DNA from: Chloroflexota bacterium
GTDB taxonomy: Bacteria > Chloroflexota > Limnocylindria > Limnocylindrales > CSP1-4
Direction of reading: 5' to 3'
DNA: 42,848 bases
Assembly (NCBI GenBank): GCA_021789435.1
Contig: JAJYJO010000010.1
Coordinates: 1 to 42,848 of the forward strand
A program made the position numbers and the translations under genes. The stretch's first letter is position 1. Each line of letters starts with the position of its first letter. The notes under the pieces are model-generated. The model had not been told where the DNA came from. It made no database searches and saw only the letters and a list, made by a program, of their open reading frames with translations. Shown piece after piece: positions 14,503 to 22,721 of the stretch.

Positions 14503-16620
14503 GTGGCCGACCGTCAGACGAGGACCCACGAGCCGATGACCAGCAAGAGCGTCGACCTCCCCCACCTTCGCAGCGTCGTCCTGGCCTCCCATGCCGGGGT
14601 GGGCAAGACGACGCTGGCCGAGCACCTCCTGCACGCCGCCGGGGCGATCAGCCGCCTGGGCAGGGTCGACGACGGCACGGCAAGCCTGGACTTCGAGCCG
14701 GAGGAGCAGAAGCGCCACCAGTCGCTGTCCCTGGCGGTCGCCACGCTGGAGCACGACGGCACGCGGGTCACCCTGGTCGACACGCCCGGTTACGCGGAAT
14801 TCAGCGCCGAGGTCGTGGAGGGTTTCGCGGCGGCCGACGGGGCCCTGCTGCTGATGGACGCCTCCGGGGGCGTGGAGGCGGGCCTGGAGAACGCGGTCGC
14901 CGTCGCTCGGTCCAGCGGCACGGCGGCCTGCTTCTTCATCAACAAGGCCGACCGGGAGAACGCCAACCCGAGCGCCGCGCTCGACGCGCTGCGGGCCTCG
15001 TTCGGGACCAAGATCGCCCCGCTGCAGCTGGCCATCGGCGCGGCCGACACGTTCGCCGGCTACGTCGACCTGGTCCACCGCAGGGCCTACCGGCTGGAAG
15101 GCGGCAAGGAGGTCGAGGCCGCCGTACCGGCCGAGCTGGCGGCCGAGGTCGACCGCCGCCGCGACCAGCTGCTTGAGGCGGCGGTCGAGGCCGATGACGA
15201 CGTCATGACCAAATACCTCGAGGGCGAGGAGATCTCCGACGCGGAGCTGGAGGCCTGCCTGCGCAAGGGCGTCCGCGAGTCGCTCCTGGCGCCGGTCCTG
15301 GTCGGCAGCGCCGTCCGGGGGATCGGGCTCCGTGGCCTCCTGGACGCCATCGTCCGCTACCTGCCGTCCCCCACCGACCGGGGACCACTCACCGCCCTCG
15401 ACCCTGCCGGGTCGGCGGTGGCGGTGACCGCCAACCCGGAGGGCCCGCTCGTGGCCCGCGTCTTCAAGACCACGGCCGACCCCTTCGTCGGCCGCCTGAC
15501 GTACCTGCGGATCGTGTCCGGGACGCTGGCCGGCCAGGGCCATGCCTGGAATGCCAGCCGCTCCGAGGACGAGCGGATCGGCCAGCTCCTCCTGCTCCAC
15601 GGCAAGGACCAGGAGCCGGTCGGCCAACTCAGGGCCGGCGAGATCGGGGCCGTCGCCAAGCTCTCGGTGACGGGCACCGGTGACACGCTCTCGTCCCGGG
15701 AGCAGCCGCTCACCCTGCCGCCACTCCGCTTCCCCGACCCGACCCTGCAGGTCGCGATCGAGCCGCAGACCAAGGCGGACCTGGACAAGCTCGGCCAGGC
15801 CCTCCAGCGGATGCTGGAGGAAGAGCCCGCGGCGCGTGTCCAGCGGAGCGACACCGGCGAGCAGGTCCTGCTGGCGATGGGCGATGCGCACATCGCGGTC
15901 CTGGGCGAGCGGCTCAAGCGCAAGTTCGGGGCGGCGATCGTGACCCGGACGCCGCGGGTCCCCTACCGCGAGACGATCCGCGGCAGGACCCAGGTCCACG
16001 GCCGCTACAAGAAGCAGACCGGCGGCCACGGGATGTTCGCCGACGTCTGGCTGGAGCTGGAGCCCAACCCGGGCGGCGGCCTCGAGTTCGCGGAGCGGGT
16101 GGTCGGCGGAGTCGTCCCCCGCCAGTTCTTCCCCGGCGTGGAGAAGGGTGTCCGGGAGACAGCGGCCGAGGGGGTCCTGGCGGGCTACCCGCTGAGCGAC
16201 TTCAAGGCGACCCTCTACGACGGCTCGTTCCATCCGGTCGACTCCAACGAGCTCTCCTTCAAGATCGCCTCGTCGATGGCCCTCAAGCAGGGGGTCCTGG
16301 AGTCGAAGCCGGTCCTGATGGAGCCGATCATGGCGGTCGGGGTCCGGGTGCCCGAGCAGTACATGGGCGACGTCAACCGCGACCTCAACGGCCGGCGCGG
16401 GCGGGTCCTGGGCATGGATCCGGCGGACAACGGGATGCAGGTGATCACCGCCCATGTGCCGCAGGCCGAGCTCTTCAGCTACGCCACCGAGCTCCGTTCG
16501 CTGACGGGCGGCCGAGGCACCTTCACCGCGACCCTGGACCACTACGAGGACGTGCCGGCCCACCTCGCCGAGAAGATCGTCGAGGCGCACAAGAAGGAGG
16601 TCGCCGCCGAGGCGCACTGA
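14503..16620 (+). CDS. Elongation factor G-like GTPase (EF-G2 / FusA2 type)
   Basis: A 705-residue protein with the EF-G domain layout: a GTPase domain, domain II, domain III, domain IV (RYKKQTGGHGMFADVWLEL) and domain V ending in a C-terminal helix. The P-loop is SHAGVGKT (29-36) rather than AHIDAGKT. DTPG is at 93-96 and NKAD at 147-150. The switch I region reads EEQKRHQSLSL in place of the EQERGITI block of true EF-G. These changes mark the EF-G-like paralogue group, whose members are not the main translocase. The GTG start has no good ribosome binding site; the ATG at residue 12 (14536) is an alternative. The gene is divergent from yebC, itself linked to ribosome function. The exact role is unknown. 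Confidence 0.9.
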   Translation: MADRQTRTHEPMTSKSVDLPHLRSVVLASHAGVGKTTLAEHLLHAAGAISRLGRVDDGTASLDFEPEEQKRHQSLSLAVATLEHDGTRVTLVDTPGYAEFSAEVVEGFAAADGALLLMDASGGVEAGLENAVAVARSSGTAACFFINKADRENANPSAALDALRASFGTKIAPLQLAIGAADTFAGYVDLVHRRAYRLEGGKEVEAAVPAELAAEVDRRRDQLLEAAVEADDDVMTKYLEGEEISDAELEACLRKGVRESLLAPVLVGSAVRGIGLRGLLDAIVRYLPSPTDRGPLTALDPAGSAVAVTANPEGPLVARVFKTTADPFVGRLTYLRIVSGTLAGQGHAWNASRSEDERIGQLLLLHGKDQEPVGQLRAGEIGAVAKLSVTGTGDTLSSREQPLTLPPLRFPDPTLQVAIEPQTKADLDKLGQALQRMLEEEPAARVQRSDTGEQVLLAMGDAHIAVLGERLKRKFGAAIVTRTPRVPYRETIRGRTQVHGRYKKQTGGHGMFADVWLELEPNPGGGLEFAERVVGGVVPRQFFPGVEKGVRETAAEGVLAGYPLSDFKATLYDGSFHPVDSNELSFKIASSMALKQGVLESKPVLMEPIMAVGVRVPEQYMGDVNRDLNGRRGRVLGMDPADNGMQVITAHVPQAELFSYATELRSLTGGRGTFTATLDHYEDVPAHLAEKIVEAHKKEVAAEAH

Positions 16621-16830: not shown

Positions 16831-17562
16831 TCAGCTCGATTCGAGGGCAAGCGCCTCGGCGAGGTCGATCCTCCCCTCGTAGAGAGCGCGGCCGATGATG
16901 ACGCCGACGCAGCCGATCTCGCGGACCGCGCGCAGGTCGTCGAAGTCGCTCATCCCGCCGGAGGCGACGACCGCGCCGGCCCCGGTCCGGACCAGGCGCT
17001 CCAGGAGCCCGAGGTCCGGCCCCCTCAGCAGGCCGTCCTGTTCGACGGCCGTCACCACGAACCGCTCGACGCCGCGCCCGGCGAGGCCGATCAGCGCCGC
17101 CTCCGCGTCGATCCCCGGCGCGCCCTCGCGCCAGGCCTCACCCACGGCGCGGCCGGCGCGGACATCCAGCCCGACGGCGATCCGGTCCGCGCCGTGGCGC
17201 GCGACGAGTCCGGCGGCGAGGTTCGAGTCGTGCAGGGCCGCGGTCCCCAGGACCACTCGGCGAACGCCGCTCGCGAGGGCGGCGTCCACGTGCCAGCGGT
17301 CCCGCAGCCCGCCACCGAGCTCGCACGCGGCCGCGCCACCGAGCGCGGTCACGATCGCCGCCACGACCTCCGACTGCCGGGGTCTCCCCTCGCGCGCACC
17401 GTCCAGGTCCACCACGTGGATCCAGCGAGCACCCGCCGCGGCGAACCCGCGGGCCACCTCGTCGGGCCGGCCGTGGTAGATCGTCTCCCGCTGGAAGTCG
17501 CCCTGCGCCAGGCGGACCACCCGGCCGCGGCGCAGGTCGATGGCCGGGATCACATCGAACAC
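16831..17562 (-). CDS. hisA: ProFAR isomerase HisA
   Basis: HisA isomerises the aminoaldose ProFAR to the aminoketose PRFAR, step four of histidine synthesis. The 243-residue TIM barrel starts MFDVIPAIDLRRGRVV with the catalytic Asp9; the second Asp is in VGLDVRAG. Phosphate-binding glycines are in ELGGGLR and VASGGM. I chose the GTG at 17562 because GGAGG is five bases upstream and it gives the family N-terminus; the open frame continues upstream into intergenic DNA. hisA is alone on the minus strand, divergent from the rest of the his genes, while in many bacteria it lies between hisH and hisF. Confidence 0.97.
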   Translation of the reverse strand: MFDVIPAIDLRRGRVVRLAQGDFQRETIYHGRPDEVARGFAAAGARWIHVVDLDGAREGRPRQSEVVAAIVTALGGAAACELGGGLRDRWHVDAALASGVRRVVLGTAALHDSNLAAGLVARHGADRIAVGLDVRAGRAVGEAWREGAPGIDAEAALIGLAGRGVERFVVTAVEQDGLLRGPDLGLLERLVRTGAGAVVASGGMSDFDDLRAVREIGCVGVIIGRALYEGRIDLAEALALESS

Positions 17563-17595
17563 GATTGCCTCCGCCCTGCGGGCAACGTGGTACCC

Positions 17596-17627
17596 TGCTA
17601 GCGTATTAGCGCAGTAACACGTTAGCA
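17596..17627. promoter_or_regulatory. 32-bp palindrome, candidate YerC/HisR operator
   Basis: The left end TGCTAGCGT and the right end ACGTTAGCA pair with one mismatch, and the inner bases continue the symmetry: TTA near the left pairs with TAA near the right around a central GC. In all, 24 of 32 positions obey the dyad. The core contains repeated CTAGC/TTAGC units, reminiscent of the CTAG-rich half-sites of TrpR. It occupies most of the 79-base gap between divergent hisA and yerC-hisG and would overlap promoters of both. Binding by the adjacent TrpR-like protein is inferred, not shown. Confidence 0.65.
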
Positions 17628-17641
17628 CGAGTGAACGAGCA

Positions 17642-18037
17642 ATGAACGAGGAGACCGGCGGCTGGCGCACCGCCGACGTGGACGACCTGCTGCGAGCGTT
17701 GCTCCAACTCGAGACGGAGGGCGAGGCGGCCGCCTTCCTGCGGGACCTCTGCACGCTGGGTGAACTCCACGACCTCGCCCAGCGCTGGGCGGTGGTCCGG
17801 TTGCTAGACGCAGGGCTCCACTACGCGGCGATCGCCCGGCGGACCGGTGCCAGCACGGCCACGATCACCCGTATCGCCTCGTGGCTCCACCACGGCGAAG
17901 GCGGCTACCGCCTGGCGCTGGCCCGGGCGAGGGCCGCCGATGCGCGTGCCGCGCGGCCGGGCGAGCCGGGGCCCGACGCCGCATCCGGAGCGGTCACCAT
18001 CGGCCGGGCCACCCCGAGCGGGCGGGCGGCGCGGTGA
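17642..18037 (+). CDS. YerC/YecD family TrpR-related regulator
   Basis: A 131-residue protein of the TrpR superfamily. The TrpR-like fold spans about 11-100. The helix-turn-helix is seen in LDAGLHYAAIARRTGAS followed by TATITRIASWL, with a GYRLAL helix after it. A disordered Ala/Arg-rich tail of about 30 residues follows. YerC-type proteins have been proposed as histidine-responsive repressors (HisR) in Gram-positive bacteria. Here it is the first gene of the histidine operon, overlaps hisG by four bases, and sits beside a 32-bp palindrome. Together these support autoregulation and control of all his genes. The ribosome binding site is weak (ACGAG two bases before the ATG). Confidence 0.9.
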   Translation: MNEETGGWRTADVDDLLRALLQLETEGEAAAFLRDLCTLGELHDLAQRWAVVRLLDAGLHYAAIARRTGASTATITRIASWLHHGEGGYRLALARARAADARAARPGEPGPDAASGAVTIGRATPSGRAAR

Positions 18038-18894
18038 GGGGCCGCCTGCGACTGGCGGTCCCGAACAAGGGCCGCCTGGTTGAACCGACCCTCGAGCTGC
18101 TGCGGGATGCCGGCCTCGTCTTCGAGGCCCACGACCGGAGCCTCGTGGCGCGGGTCGAGAACCACGACCTCGACATCCTCTTCGTGCGGACGAACGACGT
18201 CATCGAGTTCGTCGGCGACGGCGTGGCCGATCTCGGAGTGACCGGCCTGGACCTGATCGCGGAGGCGGGCGCCGAGCTCCCGCAGCTGCGGCGTCTCGGC
18301 TTCGGGCGCTGCCGGCTGGCGGTCGCGGCCCCGGACGACTCGCCCTTTCGCGCCGTGGAGGACCTGGCCGGGCTCCGGGTCGCGACCGCCCACCCCGAGA
18401 CGACCCGGCGCTACTTCGCCGGCCGACAGATCGCCATCGATGTCGTTCCCCTCTCGGGCGCCGTGGAGGTCGCCCCGCGCCTGGGCCTCGCCGAGGCCAT
18501 CGTCGATCTCGTCTCGACCGGCTCCACCCTCGCCACCAACGGCCTCCGGCCCCTCGGCGACGTGCTGGCCTCCGAGGCGGTCCTCGTCGCCAACCCGGCG
18601 GCGCTCGGCGACCGGGCGGCGACGATCGAGGCTCTCGACACGATGGTCTCGAGCGTCCTCGCGGCGCGCGATCGGAAGTACCTGATGATGAATGCCCCGG
18701 CGGCCAGGCTCGGCGAGTTGACCGGCCTGCTGCCTGGCCTCTCCTCGCCGTCGGTCATCCCCCTCGCCGAGTCCGGCCTGGTCGCCATCCACGCCGTCGT
18801 CGAGGCAGCCGCCGTCTGGAGCCTGCTCCCCCGCCTGAGGGCCGCCGGCGGGTCGGGAATCCTGATCCTGCCGATCGAGAAGCTCGTCCCGTGA
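18034..18894 (+). CDS. hisG: ATP phosphoribosyltransferase HisG (long form)
   Basis: HisG joins ATP and PRPP in the first, feedback-regulated step. The 286-residue length and the C-terminal segment (about 210-286, ending SGILILPIEKLVP) mark the long form with its own ACT-like regulatory domain, so no HisZ is needed. PRPP binding is in DLVSTGSTLATNGL. The GTG at 18034 overlaps the yerC stop (GTGA) and gives the family N-terminus RLRLAVPNKGRL. Confidence 0.97.
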   Translation: MRGRLRLAVPNKGRLVEPTLELLRDAGLVFEAHDRSLVARVENHDLDILFVRTNDVIEFVGDGVADLGVTGLDLIAEAGAELPQLRRLGFGRCRLAVAAPDDSPFRAVEDLAGLRVATAHPETTRRYFAGRQIAIDVVPLSGAVEVAPRLGLAEAIVDLVSTGSTLATNGLRPLGDVLASEAVLVANPAALGDRAATIEALDTMVSSVLAARDRKYLMMNAPAARLGELTGLLPGLSSPSVIPLAESGLVAIHAVVEAAAVWSLLPRLRAAGGSGILILPIEKLVP

Positions 18895-20234
18895 GCGCCG
18901 CGGCCGTCCGCCTGCAGCGCCTGGACCTGGCCCGCTCCGACGACCCGGCCGTGGCGGCCGAGGTGCGTCGCCTCGTCCGGCGGGGCGCGGCCCCGGACCC
19001 AACGGTCCGCGAAGGAGCACGGACGATCCTGGCCGACGTCCGCGGCCACGGCGATGCCGCGGTCCGCGAGGCGAACCGCCGCTTCGGCGGCGGCCTCTCC
19101 GACGGGCGCCTGACCCTCACCGCGGACGAACTGGCCGCGGCTGCCCGGGACCTGCCGGGCGCCGTCCGGAGCGGCCTCGAGACCATGATCGCCAACGTCC
19201 GGCGGTTCGCCGAGGCGCAGCTCCCGGCCACGACGCGCACCCAGATCGTCCCCGGCATCGAGATCGAGCGCCGCTGGACGCCGCTGCGGCGGGTCGGGGT
19301 CTACGCCCCGGGCGGGACGGCCCCCTACCCGAGCTCGCTGGTCATGGGCGTCGTGCCCGCCCGCGTGGCCGGCGTCGACGAGGTGATCGTCGCCTCGCCG
19401 GCCGGCCCCGACGGGCGCTTCGACCCGGTCCTGGCGGGTGCGGCCGGGCTCCTGGCGGTCGATCGCGTGGTCGTCGCCGGCGGCGCGCAGGCCGTTGGCG
19501 CGCTGGCCTTCGGGCTGGCGGAGGCCGGTCTCGAGCCGGTCGACCGCATCGTCGGACCGGGCAACGCCTGGGTGACCGCGGCCAAGCTCGAGGTCTTCGG
19601 CGAGGTCGGCATCGACCTGCCGGCGGGCCCCTCGGAGGTGATGGTCCTGGCGGACGGCTCGGCCGACCCGGCCCACGTGGCCGCCGACCTGCTGAGCCAG
19701 GCGGAGCACGGCCCGGACTCCCCTGCCCTGCTCGTGACGACCGAGCCGCAGCTGGCCGAGGCCGTCGAGGTCGAGCTCGGACGCCAGCTCGTCTCGGCGT
19801 CTCGCCGCGCGATCCTGGAGCGGTCTCTCGCCGCGGGCGCGCTCGTCGTCCTGGCGCCGGACCGGGCGGCTGCCCTGGCCTTCGTCGACGCCTACGCGCC
19901 CGAGCACCTCTCCGTGGTGGTGGAGGAGACGGAGGGGGCCGTGGCCGCGCTCCACAACGCCGGGTCGCTCTTCGTGGGGCCGTACGCCCCGGAGTCGGCC
20001 GGCGACTACGCCTCCGGCGCGAACCACGTGCTGCCGACGGGCGGCCTGGCCCGCTCCTGCGGCGCGCTCTCCGTCGCCGACTTCGGGAAGTACGTCCAAG
20101 TCCAGCGGATTGACCGCGCCGGGCTGAGCGCCATCCGCGCCGCGGTCGATGCGGTGGCCACGGCCGAGGGGCTGCTGGCACACCGGGCGGCGGTCGAGAT
20201 CCGTTTCGCGGAGGCGGAGCCGTGGGAGCGGTGA
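18891..20234 (+). CDS. hisD: Histidinol dehydrogenase HisD
   Basis: HisD oxidises histidinol to histidine in two NAD-dependent steps. The 447-residue protein has the family blocks VGVYAPGGTAPYPSSLVMG, GPGNAWVTAAKLEVFG, DLPAGPSEVMVLAD, the zinc-site region SQAEHGPDSPALL, the YAPEHLSVV block and the C-terminal SGANHVLPTGG. Length and order are normal. The GTG overlaps the hisG stop (GTGA), consistent with translational coupling. Confidence 0.98.
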   Translation: MSAAAVRLQRLDLARSDDPAVAAEVRRLVRRGAAPDPTVREGARTILADVRGHGDAAVREANRRFGGGLSDGRLTLTADELAAAARDLPGAVRSGLETMIANVRRFAEAQLPATTRTQIVPGIEIERRWTPLRRVGVYAPGGTAPYPSSLVMGVVPARVAGVDEVIVASPAGPDGRFDPVLAGAAGLLAVDRVVVAGGAQAVGALAFGLAEAGLEPVDRIVGPGNAWVTAAKLEVFGEVGIDLPAGPSEVMVLADGSADPAHVAADLLSQAEHGPDSPALLVTTEPQLAEAVEVELGRQLVSASRRAILERSLAAGALVVLAPDRAAALAFVDAYAPEHLSVVVEETEGAVAALHNAGSLFVGPYAPESAGDYASGANHVLPTGGLARSCGALSVADFGKYVQVQRIDRAGLSAIRAAVDAVATAEGLLAHRAAVEIRFAEAEPWER

Positions 20235-21379
20235 GCCCCGCCGGCGCGCTCGGGTCGCTCCTCGGCACCGAGCCGGCCGCCTACGCCTGGGAGCCGTCGA
20301 GCGAGGAGATCGCCCGGCAGACCGGGCTGCCGATCACGGCCATCGTCCGCTTCGACACCAACACGCGACCGGCGCCGCCGGCGCTGGTCGCCCGAGTGCT
20401 CACGGCGGGCGCCTTCCGGCCGGGGCTCTCCGAGTACCCGCCGAACGACTACGGGCCGCTCGCCCGGGCCGCCGCGGCGGCCTACGGCGTCGAGCCCGAG
20501 GAGATCGTCGTCGGGGCCGGCGCGGACGAGATCCTGGACCTGGTCGCCCGGGCGTGGCTCCGCCCCGGCGAGGCGGCCATCGTGCCCACGCCCACCTACG
20601 CCATGTACCGGGTCGTGACCGAGCAGCGCGGAGCCCGGGTCCACGAGGTGCCCCGCCGCGGGCCGGGCGAGGCCTGGGCCCTGGACGTGGCCGCCATTCG
20701 GGCGGCGGCCCGGGAGGCGGCCCTGGTCTGGCTGTGTGACCCGAACAATCCGACCGGCCGCGCCGAGGCGCCCGGGACGCTGCCGGGGCTGCTGGCGAGC
20801 CTGGCCGGCGACGCGGCTCTCGACGGACGGCCGGCGCCGCTCGTGGCCGTCGACGAGGCCTACGCGGAGTTCGTCGACAGTTCCGCCCTGGCCCTGCTCG
20901 ACAGCTACGCCCGGCTGATCGTGGTCCGGACGGTGAGCAAGGCATACGGCCTGGCCGGCCTCCGAGTCGGCTTCGGAATCGCCAGGCGGCCGGTGCTCGA
21001 GCCGGTCGAGCACCACCGCCCCCCCGGGCCGGTCTCGACGGTCTCGGCGGCGATCGCGGCCGCCGCCCTGGCAGAGCCGGCGATCGCCCGCTCGTTCGTG
21101 GTCGAGACCGGCGTCGAGCGGGAGCGCCTGGCGGCTGGCCTGGCCGCCGTCGGCTGGCGCGTCGAGCCGTCGGTGGCGAACTTCCTGCTGGTCCGGTTCG
21201 GATCTCCGGCCGTGGCCGGCCGGGCCGCCGCCGCGCTGCTGCGACGTGGCCTCGTGGCGCGGACCTTCGGACCCGACCACCCGCTCGCCGCCGCGCTCCG
21301 CCTGACGGTGCGGACGCCGGCCGAGGACGACCGGCTGCTGGAGGCCGCCGCGGAGGCGGCCCGGGAGGAAGCGCCATGA
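20222..21379 (+). CDS. hisC: Histidinol-phosphate aminotransferase HisC
   Basis: HisC is the PLP-dependent aminotransferase that makes histidinol phosphate from imidazole acetol phosphate. CDPNNPTG (172-179), VDEAYAEF (210-217) and the PLP lysine K240 in RTVSKAYGLAGLRVGF are present in a 385-residue fold-type I enzyme. Two starts are possible. The GTG at 20222 has GAGG seven bases upstream and overlaps hisD by 13 bases. The GTG at 20231 makes the four-base GTGA overlap seen elsewhere in this operon. Either gives a full domain. Confidence 0.95.
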   Translation: MGAVSPAGALGSLLGTEPAAYAWEPSSEEIARQTGLPITAIVRFDTNTRPAPPALVARVLTAGAFRPGLSEYPPNDYGPLARAAAAAYGVEPEEIVVGAGADEILDLVARAWLRPGEAAIVPTPTYAMYRVVTEQRGARVHEVPRRGPGEAWALDVAAIRAAAREAALVWLCDPNNPTGRAEAPGTLPGLLASLAGDAALDGRPAPLVAVDEAYAEFVDSSALALLDSYARLIVVRTVSKAYGLAGLRVGFGIARRPVLEPVEHHRPPGPVSTVSAAIAAAALAEPAIARSFVVETGVERERLAAGLAAVGWRVEPSVANFLLVRFGSPAVAGRAAAALLRRGLVARTFGPDHPLAAALRLTVRTPAEDDRLLEAAAEAAREEAP

Positions 21380-22005
21380 CGCCGGCGTCCGCTGGCTACG
21401 AGGTGACGGTCGAGGGAGCGGGAGCGGCCAGTGTCGAGCGCCGGACGCGCGAGACGCAGGTCCGCGTCGCCCTCCGGCTCGCCGGCGAAGGGCTGGCGGA
21501 GATCGAGACCGGGATCGGCTTCTACGACCACCTGCTGGCCTCCCTCGCCCACCACGCCCTGTTCGACCTGGAGGTCCGGGCGAGCGGCGACCTCGCCGTG
21601 GACGAGCACCACACGGTCGAGGACGTCGCCCTGGTGCTCGGGACCGCTCTCGGCGCGGCGCTGGGCGAGCGCGCCGGCATCGCCCGCTTCGGCGATGCGG
21701 CGGTGCCGATGGACGAGGCCGTGGCCACGGCGGTCGTGGACGTCGGTGGCCGGCCCTACGCCGTCGTCGACCTGCCCTTCCGCGGTGAGCGTGCCGGGAC
21801 GCTGCCGCTCCAGCTGGTCGATCATGCTCTCGAGGCGCTGGCGCGGACCGCCGGCGTCACGCTCCACCTCCGCGGCACCGGCCGCAACGATCACCACTTG
21901 GCCGAAGCTGCCTTCAAGGCCCTCGGCCGCGCCCTGCGGGCCGCGTGCGAGCCCGATCCGCGGCGCGGCGGCGCGGTCGCCTCGACCAAGGGCCGGCTCG
22001 GGTGA
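21376..22005 (+). CDS. hisB: Imidazoleglycerol-phosphate dehydratase HisB (monofunctional)
   Basis: HisB dehydrates imidazole glycerol phosphate to imidazole acetol phosphate. The manganese-binding His/Glu motifs are visible: [24 protein letters not shown] and [17 protein letters not shown]. The 209-residue length covers only the dehydratase; there is no N-terminal phosphatase domain as in the E. coli bifunctional enzyme. The ATG overlaps the hisC stop (ATGA). Confidence 0.97.
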
Positions 22006-22721
22006 GCCCGGTAGCGCGGGCGTCCGGTGCCTCGTCGGCCGGTCGGCCGGTCGGCGGGGCGCCGCGGATCGGCGTCGTCGACTACGGGGCGGGGAACCTG
22101 GTCAGCATCGGCCAGGCCCTGGCCCGGGTCGGGGCCGAGGTGCGCCGGGTGCGCCGGAGCGACGACCTGCACGACGTGCAGGGCCTGGTGGTTCCCGGGG
22201 TCGGAGCCGCCGGGCCGGCCATGCGCCGCCTGGGCCGGACCGGCCTGGTGGAGCCGCTCCGCGACTGGGTTGCAGCCGACCGGCCCTTCCTGGGCATCTG
22301 CCTCGGCCTGCAGCTCCTCTTCGAGGGCAGCGACGAGGACGGGGCCGAGACGCTCGGTCTGCTGGCCGGGCGGACGGTCATGCTCGAAAGCGCTCCGCGC
22401 CTCCCGCACATCGGCTGGAACCAGGTGGAGCGGCGACGCGCGCACCCGCTCTTCGCCGGGATCGCGCCGGCGGCCGACTTCTACTTCGTGCACTCCTATG
22501 CCGGTCGCCCGGCCGGGACCGAGGGGGAGGCGGCGATCCTGGCCGAGACGGAGCACGGCCGCCGGTTCGTGAGCGCCGTCGCGCGCGGAGCGCTGCTCGG
22601 CGTGCAGTTCCATCCCGAGCGGAGTGCCGGGGACGGCCTCCGCCTGCTGGCCAACTTCGTCGCGATCGCGGCCGAGGGCGGTGGGCGGGCGAGAGTCCGG
22701 CCGGAAGCCGTCTCGTGCTGA
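22002..22721 (+). CDS. hisH: Imidazole glycerol phosphate synthase glutaminase subunit HisH
   Basis: HisH hydrolyses glutamine and channels ammonia to HisF. The class I glutaminase triad is visible: nucleophile C100 in [10 protein letters not shown], and H204 and E206 in VQFHPE. The GTG at 22002 overlaps the hisB stop (GTGA). It gives about 20 disordered Ser/Ala/Gly-rich residues before the usual start [12 protein letters not shown], so the 239-residue protein is a little long. I see no better start codon close to the domain. Confidence 0.96.

Follow-up and report, generated by a model that had tools for sequence, protein, structure and literature searches.

The question raised by this locus is how a histidine pathway that is divided between two divergent transcription units might be governed as a whole. 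In the 42,848-nucleotide stretch of Chloroflexota DNA analysed here (the window), hisA is read away from yerC (hisR), a TrpR-superfamily gene which leads the remaining his genes, and between the two lies a 32-bp palindrome that the initial annotation took for an operator from which all of the his genes could be silenced. The genes concerned are as follows.

16831..17562, minus strand: hisA (ProFAR isomerase), PF00977 6.9e-61 and TIGR00007 4.6e-63, likely GTG start with GGAGG upstream
17642..18037, plus strand: yerC/hisR, TrpR superfamily, 131 aa, TIGR02531 77.8 bits and PF01371 2.1e-22
18034..18894, plus strand: hisG (long form), TIGR00070 and HisG_C
18891..20234, plus strand: hisD, TIGR00069
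20222..21379, plus strand: hisC, TIGR01141 as best match, below its cut-off
21376..22005, plus strand: hisB (dehydratase), NCBIfam HisB models
22065..22721, plus strand: hisH (start approximate), TIGR01855
22718..23500, plus strand: hisF, TIGR00735
23497..24273, plus strand: hisIE, NF002747

Most genes of the his operon overlap by a few bases, and profile matches to TIGR00007, TIGR02531 and TIGR00070 agree with the neighbours first named for the palindrome, i.e. hisA on the minus strand, the TrpR-superfamily yerC and hisG. Models of defence systems gave zero matches.

The dyad and the phased array

The dyad itself is readily reproduced, in that positions 17596–17627 read TGCTAGCGTATTAGCGCAGTAACACGTTAGCA, with 24 of 32 positions symmetric and the ends as originally quoted. 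It lies between hisA and yerC as described but, rather than filling the gap, it sits in the middle of the 79 bp which separate the GTG start of hisA (17562) from the ATG of yerC (17642). Symmetry of at least 24/32 in any 32-mer arises in 0.36% of shuffles of the gap, and 26 of the about 42,800 32-mers of the whole window attain it, such that the symmetry of the dyad is on its own weak, and not decisive, evidence. Indeed, the presence of about two dozen other 32-mers that are just as symmetric is what would favour a chance dyad without function, a reading of practically negligible probability, refuted by conservation in 86 other gaps and by near-uniqueness in genomes.

A direct reading of the gap reveals a larger regularity. 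TA half-sites stand exactly 8 bp apart at 17591, 17599, 17607, 17615 and 17623, the units of the array in this window being TACCCTGC TAGCGTAT TAGCGCAG TAACACGT TAGCACGA, of which those on the left retain their outer letters poorly. The identity of the array with itself is 0.62 at a shift of 8 bp and 0.10–0.31 at other shifts except 16. In other words, the 32-bp dyad is one reading of a larger array of half-sites phased at 8 bp.

17596..17627, no strand: 32-bp dyad, 24/32 symmetric
17591..17630, no strand: candidate phased operator array, from direct reading, the family profile and an in-phase run of five TAs

Conservation of the array

The sample comprised 107 genomes of the same family, from which 87 hisA–yerC gaps, including the present one, were drawn across 22 genera. 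The yerC gene is present in 90 of the 107 genomes, and the gene order EF-G-like (plus), hisA (minus), yerC (plus), hisG, hisD is kept almost throughout. The EF-G-like gene (NF009381 subfamily), which in the window occupies 14503–16620 on the plus strand and is convergent to hisA, holds its place in nearly all relatives.

Within the 87 gaps, the two commonest distances between TA pairs are 8 bp (257 pairs) and 16 bp (157 pairs), secondary peaks at 3, 5, 11 and 19 being due to the frequent TACTA unit. At least three TAs in 8-bp phase occur in 81 of the 87 gaps, against 0.48 expected from shuffles, and four do so in 45 of the 87, against 0.08; in a count of in-phase runs, 80 of the 87 loci have at least three TAs, and the runs usually contain three to five. 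With weighting by genus (22 genera), conservation is 96–100% at the central TAs and 81–96% at the outer ones, and the consensus, CRTnnTAnCRTnnTASCAYGCTAnnAYGnTAnCAnG, is a 36-bp palindrome centred between the central TAs. This centre is also that of the 32-bp dyad (17611/17612), and across the family no other centre of symmetry is as well conserved; symmetry is likewise raised 4 and 8 bp off centre, since each 8-bp unit is nearly self-complementary. A family profile built without this locus and then scored on the window gives the array 31.9 bits (plus strand) and 40.1 bits (minus strand), the best score elsewhere in the window being −6.4 bits.

Conservation of the dyad in relatives with the same divergent arrangement had been proposed as the check on an operator, and an element in the same register is found in essentially all of the 86 other gaps. 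The element is therefore conserved, but not as a 32-bp dyad, in that only 18 of the 86 gaps reach 24/32. The dyad as a one-off palindrome is accordingly ruled out, the conserved feature being the 8-bp array, and its resemblance to CTAG-containing sites, to which attention had been drawn, is not the diagnostic feature.

The same data bear on whether the dyad could instead act after transcription has started, as an RNA hairpin (leader, attenuator or terminator). The 32-bp dyad can be folded as a stem on either strand. The fold energies are, however, ordinary (z of −1.2 and −1.0), a search of Rfam up to E = 1 returned no match, half-sites often overlap a −10 element, and the constraint in the family is on the 8-bp phase of the TAs and not, given the 18 gaps above, on the complementarity of the arms. 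On the grounds of the Rfam result and the ordinary fold an RNA element was rejected, and we consider it highly improbable.

Two genomes each carry two yerC–hisA–hisG loci (G019, L003 and L031; G023, L006 and L032), every locus with its own array, which reflects either duplication or a mixed MAG.

Beyond the family, phased TAs accompany a divergent hisA/yerC–hisG arrangement in Actinomycetota (Thermoleophilia, Gaiellaceae and others), Dormibacterota and other Chloroflexota families, and the yerC–hisG loci of Gammaproteobacteria, which are without a divergent hisA, mostly have at least three phased TAs. Firmicutes arrays were surveyed at one locus, upstream of yerC in the MAG of Clostridiales bacterium DTU064 (L234:2900-2960). 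There, eight TAs run in unbroken 8-bp phase as TATCATAG TAAAGTGA TAAAATGT TAAAGCGA TAAAACGA TAAAGCGT TAAAATAA TA, the Firmicutes HisR half-site TAAAgtg being repeated in tandem to an extreme degree. A few loci outside the family have fewer phased TAs (e.g. L216 and L239), and L250, in which yerC has no detected his neighbours, has zero.

The regulator and its 20-bp frame

Judged by its sequence, the product of yerC is HisR, of a known TrpR-type repressor family. It scores 77.8 bits against TIGR02531 (cut-off 42.2), and so passes the HisR model, and 21.7 bits against the TrpR equivalog TIGR01321 (cut-off 67.25), which it fails. Its solved relatives are 3frw (1e-16), 3kor and 3g1c, with which it shares the invariant residues D35, T38, E41, R48, Y61, T74 and R77. 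Moreover, 13 residues, among them the recognition-helix residues T74 and R77, are invariant across proteins of Chloroflexota, Actinomycetota and Gammaproteobacteria and the solved Firmicutes-type proteins, and the residues listed for this helix in PMC9413887 (Ala80, Thr81 and Arg84, TrpR numbering) are found in the window protein, which reads GASTATITR.

The HisR (YerC) regulon was described by Ashniev et al. 2022 (PMC9413887) in Firmicutes, Actinobacteria, Proteobacteria and Synergistetes, Chloroflexota not being among the phyla described. Its sites are 20-bp palindromes, cacTTTAnnnnnnTAAAgtg in most lineages and TGTAnTArnnnnyTnTTACA in Proteobacteria; the Ruminococcus gnavus HisR binds its DNA site with histidine as co-repressor, and HisR is autoregulated in nearly half of the genomes (PMC9413887). 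The first of these motifs was abstracted for the present analysis as the frame CRYnnTAn6TAnnRYG, of which the 42.8-kb window contains exactly two perfect examples, listed here with a weaker third site.

17602..17621, no strand: candidate core 20-bp HisR site 1, CGTATTAGCGCAGTAACACG, perfect frame match
17610..17629, no strand: candidate overlapping 20-bp HisR site 2, CGCAGTAACACGTTAGCACG, perfect frame match, 8 bp from site 1
17594..17613, no strand: candidate weaker third overlapping site, TA pair 17599/17607, from direct reading

The third site, which is by symmetry the counterpart of site 2, keeps the TA spacing with imperfect outer CRY/RYG letters. The gaps of the family contain 114 perfect frames against 0.055 expected and, where a gap has several, the offsets between them are always 8, 16 or 24 bp, which argues for an operator made of overlapping HisR sites rather than of one. 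The features of a HisR operator (a 20-bp palindrome, TA pairs 8 bp apart, CRY/RYG ends and a position upstream of his or hisR genes) are all present, as is the run of at least three half-sites in 8-bp phase expected of a tandem TrpR-type operator, there being five TAs here. The exact Firmicutes/Actinobacteria letters cacTTTA-n6-TAAAgtg are not those of the family consensus, which is TAnCRT/TAnnAYG; since the HisR consensus is described as lineage-specific (PMC9413887), these letters do not define a HisR site.

The identity of the ligand is a separate matter, as the array could be a YerC operator that responds not to histidine but to, e.g., tryptophan, tyrosine or an intermediate of the his pathway; alternatively, YerC could be mainly an autoregulator. 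The ligand is known for the R. gnavus HisR alone, paralogs are linked to tyrosine genes (PMC9413887), and several acidic residues in helix 2 of the Firmicutes HisR are not retained here. However, the predicted target genes are his genes only, the score against the TrpR equivalog is far below its cut-off, and yerC and hisG are lost together, hisG also being missing in 16 of the 18 genomes that have no, or only a trace of, yerC. A ligand other than histidine, or a mainly autoregulatory YerC, is thus unlikely. The two remaining genomes (G070 and G105) keep hisG at a contig end, and G020, G075, G091, G095, G100 and others are among the yerC-less genomes, usually without hisG. The joint absence suggests either loss of the whole his locus, in possible histidine auxotrophs, or missing contigs, and incompleteness of the MAGs may explain part of it.

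Candidate promoters within the array

In the yerC direction, the pattern TTGnnn-16/18-nAnnnT is found in 62 of the 86 gaps, its −10 element falling at the outer TA half-site in 34 and at the centre of the array in 16. Towards hisA, only 12 of the 86 gaps contain such an element, and the hisA promoter could not be identified by consensus. The candidate in the window is the following.

17596..17604, plus strand: candidate extended −10 of the yerC–his operon promoter, TGCTAGCGT, inside the array, position as in relatives

Relative to the array, TGCTAGCGT has the position of the −10 in those 34 relatives, which have TTGnnn 16–18 bp upstream. A convincing −35 for it was not found in this window. 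By symmetry, the outer half-sites resemble extended −10 elements in either direction, and operator and promoters would therefore probably interlock.

This leads to the reading that the array is not a repressor site but two overlapping, face-to-face promoters, with TGnTAnCGT as the extended −10 on each strand. In its favour, TGnTAnCGT can be read from the outer half-sites in the direction of yerC and, given the symmetry, in that of hisA as well, and at many loci the array and the yerC-direction promoter share a register. Yet conservation is higher at the central TAs than at the outer ones, and three to six in-phase TAs are more than a promoter needs. Moreover, a general promoter element would precede many genes, whereas the array has hardly a second copy in any one genome, fits the 20-bp HisR frame and tracks yerC and the his genes when these are apart. 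Promoters without an operator are thus very unlikely; promoter and operator roles can coexist.

Specificity across genomes

Across the 107 whole genomes, every match but one (G085:C118) to a strict four-unit pattern is at the yerC promoter, and the 17 genomes that lack a yerC match contain none. A three-unit pattern likewise falls mostly at the yerC promoter, the exceptions being five palindromes in G063 and isolated matches in G003, G017 and G085; in the present genome, the sole other match to a relaxed three-unit pattern is inside a carB-like coding region. The array is found between hisA and yerC–hisG here and in nearly all relatives, and a global regulon was rejected, as neither pattern yields a consistent second target.

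The G063 palindromes, GTGnTAGCACGsTAGCGTGCTAnCAC (L154:1564-1589, L155:1986-2011, L156:1974-1999, L157:2010-2035 and L158:1971-1996), are near-perfect, dispersed and outside the his locus, one being upstream of a polA-like ORF. They probably belong to another regulator or form a dispersed element.

One genome (G103) provides a natural experiment, in which the array tracks yerC and the his genes when they are separated. Its yerC adjoins the EF-G-like gene at a distance of about 3 kb from hisA–hisG, and in-phase half-sites occur both in the hisA–hisG gap (TATCATAGTACTACGCTA) and in the region upstream of yerC (TATCGTAGTAACACGCTG). In another (G079), where hisA forms part of the operon, only two phased TAs lie upstream of yerC.

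Proposed mechanism and significance

From the conserved array, its near-uniqueness in genomes and its fit to the HisR frame, the original operator reading is largely right. The array is very probably the operator of the neighbouring HisR (YerC), dimers of which, together with histidine, would repress both hisA and yerC–hisGDCBHF-IE. In this mechanism HisR dimers, probably loaded with histidine, would bind the central TA pair first, and further dimers would line up next to it at 8-bp intervals, to a total of two or three, in the manner of TrpR on tandem sites; the bound state could also be one central dimer, two outer dimers or three. In this regard, a tandem crystal complex attributed to Lawson and Carey in 1993 reportedly has TrpR dimers side by side on the operator. 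By covering the promoter elements inside the array, the HisR dimers would switch off hisA, yerC and the rest of the pathway. As the operon begins with yerC, HisR would also repress itself, such that we propose a self-limiting feedback on the whole pathway from one site.

A broader possibility, which we put forward tentatively and with somewhat less than even confidence, is that HisR generally acts as cooperative chains of dimers on 8-bp-phased arrays of three to eight half-sites, eight being the number at the Clostridiales locus L234. The 20-bp motif in the literature would then represent no more than the operator's core, and how strongly the histidine pathway is fed back upon would depend on how many half-sites there are. 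The phased, overlapping half-sites offer a clear, testable architecture, which HisR operators of other phyla may share, and with some 86 aligned natural variants the half-site rules and the number of dimers are directly testable.

Comparison with known systems

T-box and attenuator control of his genes place the same pathway under the control of histidine supply. These are, however, RNA mechanisms, whereas the present element has no Rfam match and an ordinary fold.

With E. coli TrpR, for whose tandem operators Lawson and Carey 1993 is cited in PMC7248756, the system shares a TrpR-superfamily helix-turn-helix, the 8-bp spacing of half-sites and the possibility of overlapping tandem sites. It differs in that the protein is below the TrpR equivalog cut-off, the pathway is that of histidine, not tryptophan, and the operator is without the full GTACTAGT core of the TrpR consensus, which is given in PMC9413887.

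The closest likeness is to the HisR regulon, in the TIGR02531 regulator, the 20-bp frame, the TA pairs 8 bp apart, the CRY/RYG ends and, as predicted here, the his pathway as target and autoregulation. The HisR regulator and its control of his genes are already known. The published site is, however, a single 20-bp palindrome, whereas here there are usually three to five phased half-sites in a 36-bp palindromic consensus; the half-site letters are TAnCAYG against the TAAAgtg of the Firmicutes consensus; and, unlike published HisR sites, the candidate operator is common to divergent hisA and the yerC–his operon. What would be new, as read from the DNA, is the predicted extension of HisR control of histidine synthesis to Chloroflexota, the replacement of a single 20-bp palindrome by a phased multi-site operator, and the sharing of that one operator by divergent hisA and yerC–hisGDCBHF-IE, a single site so positioned as to govern the whole of a split pathway.
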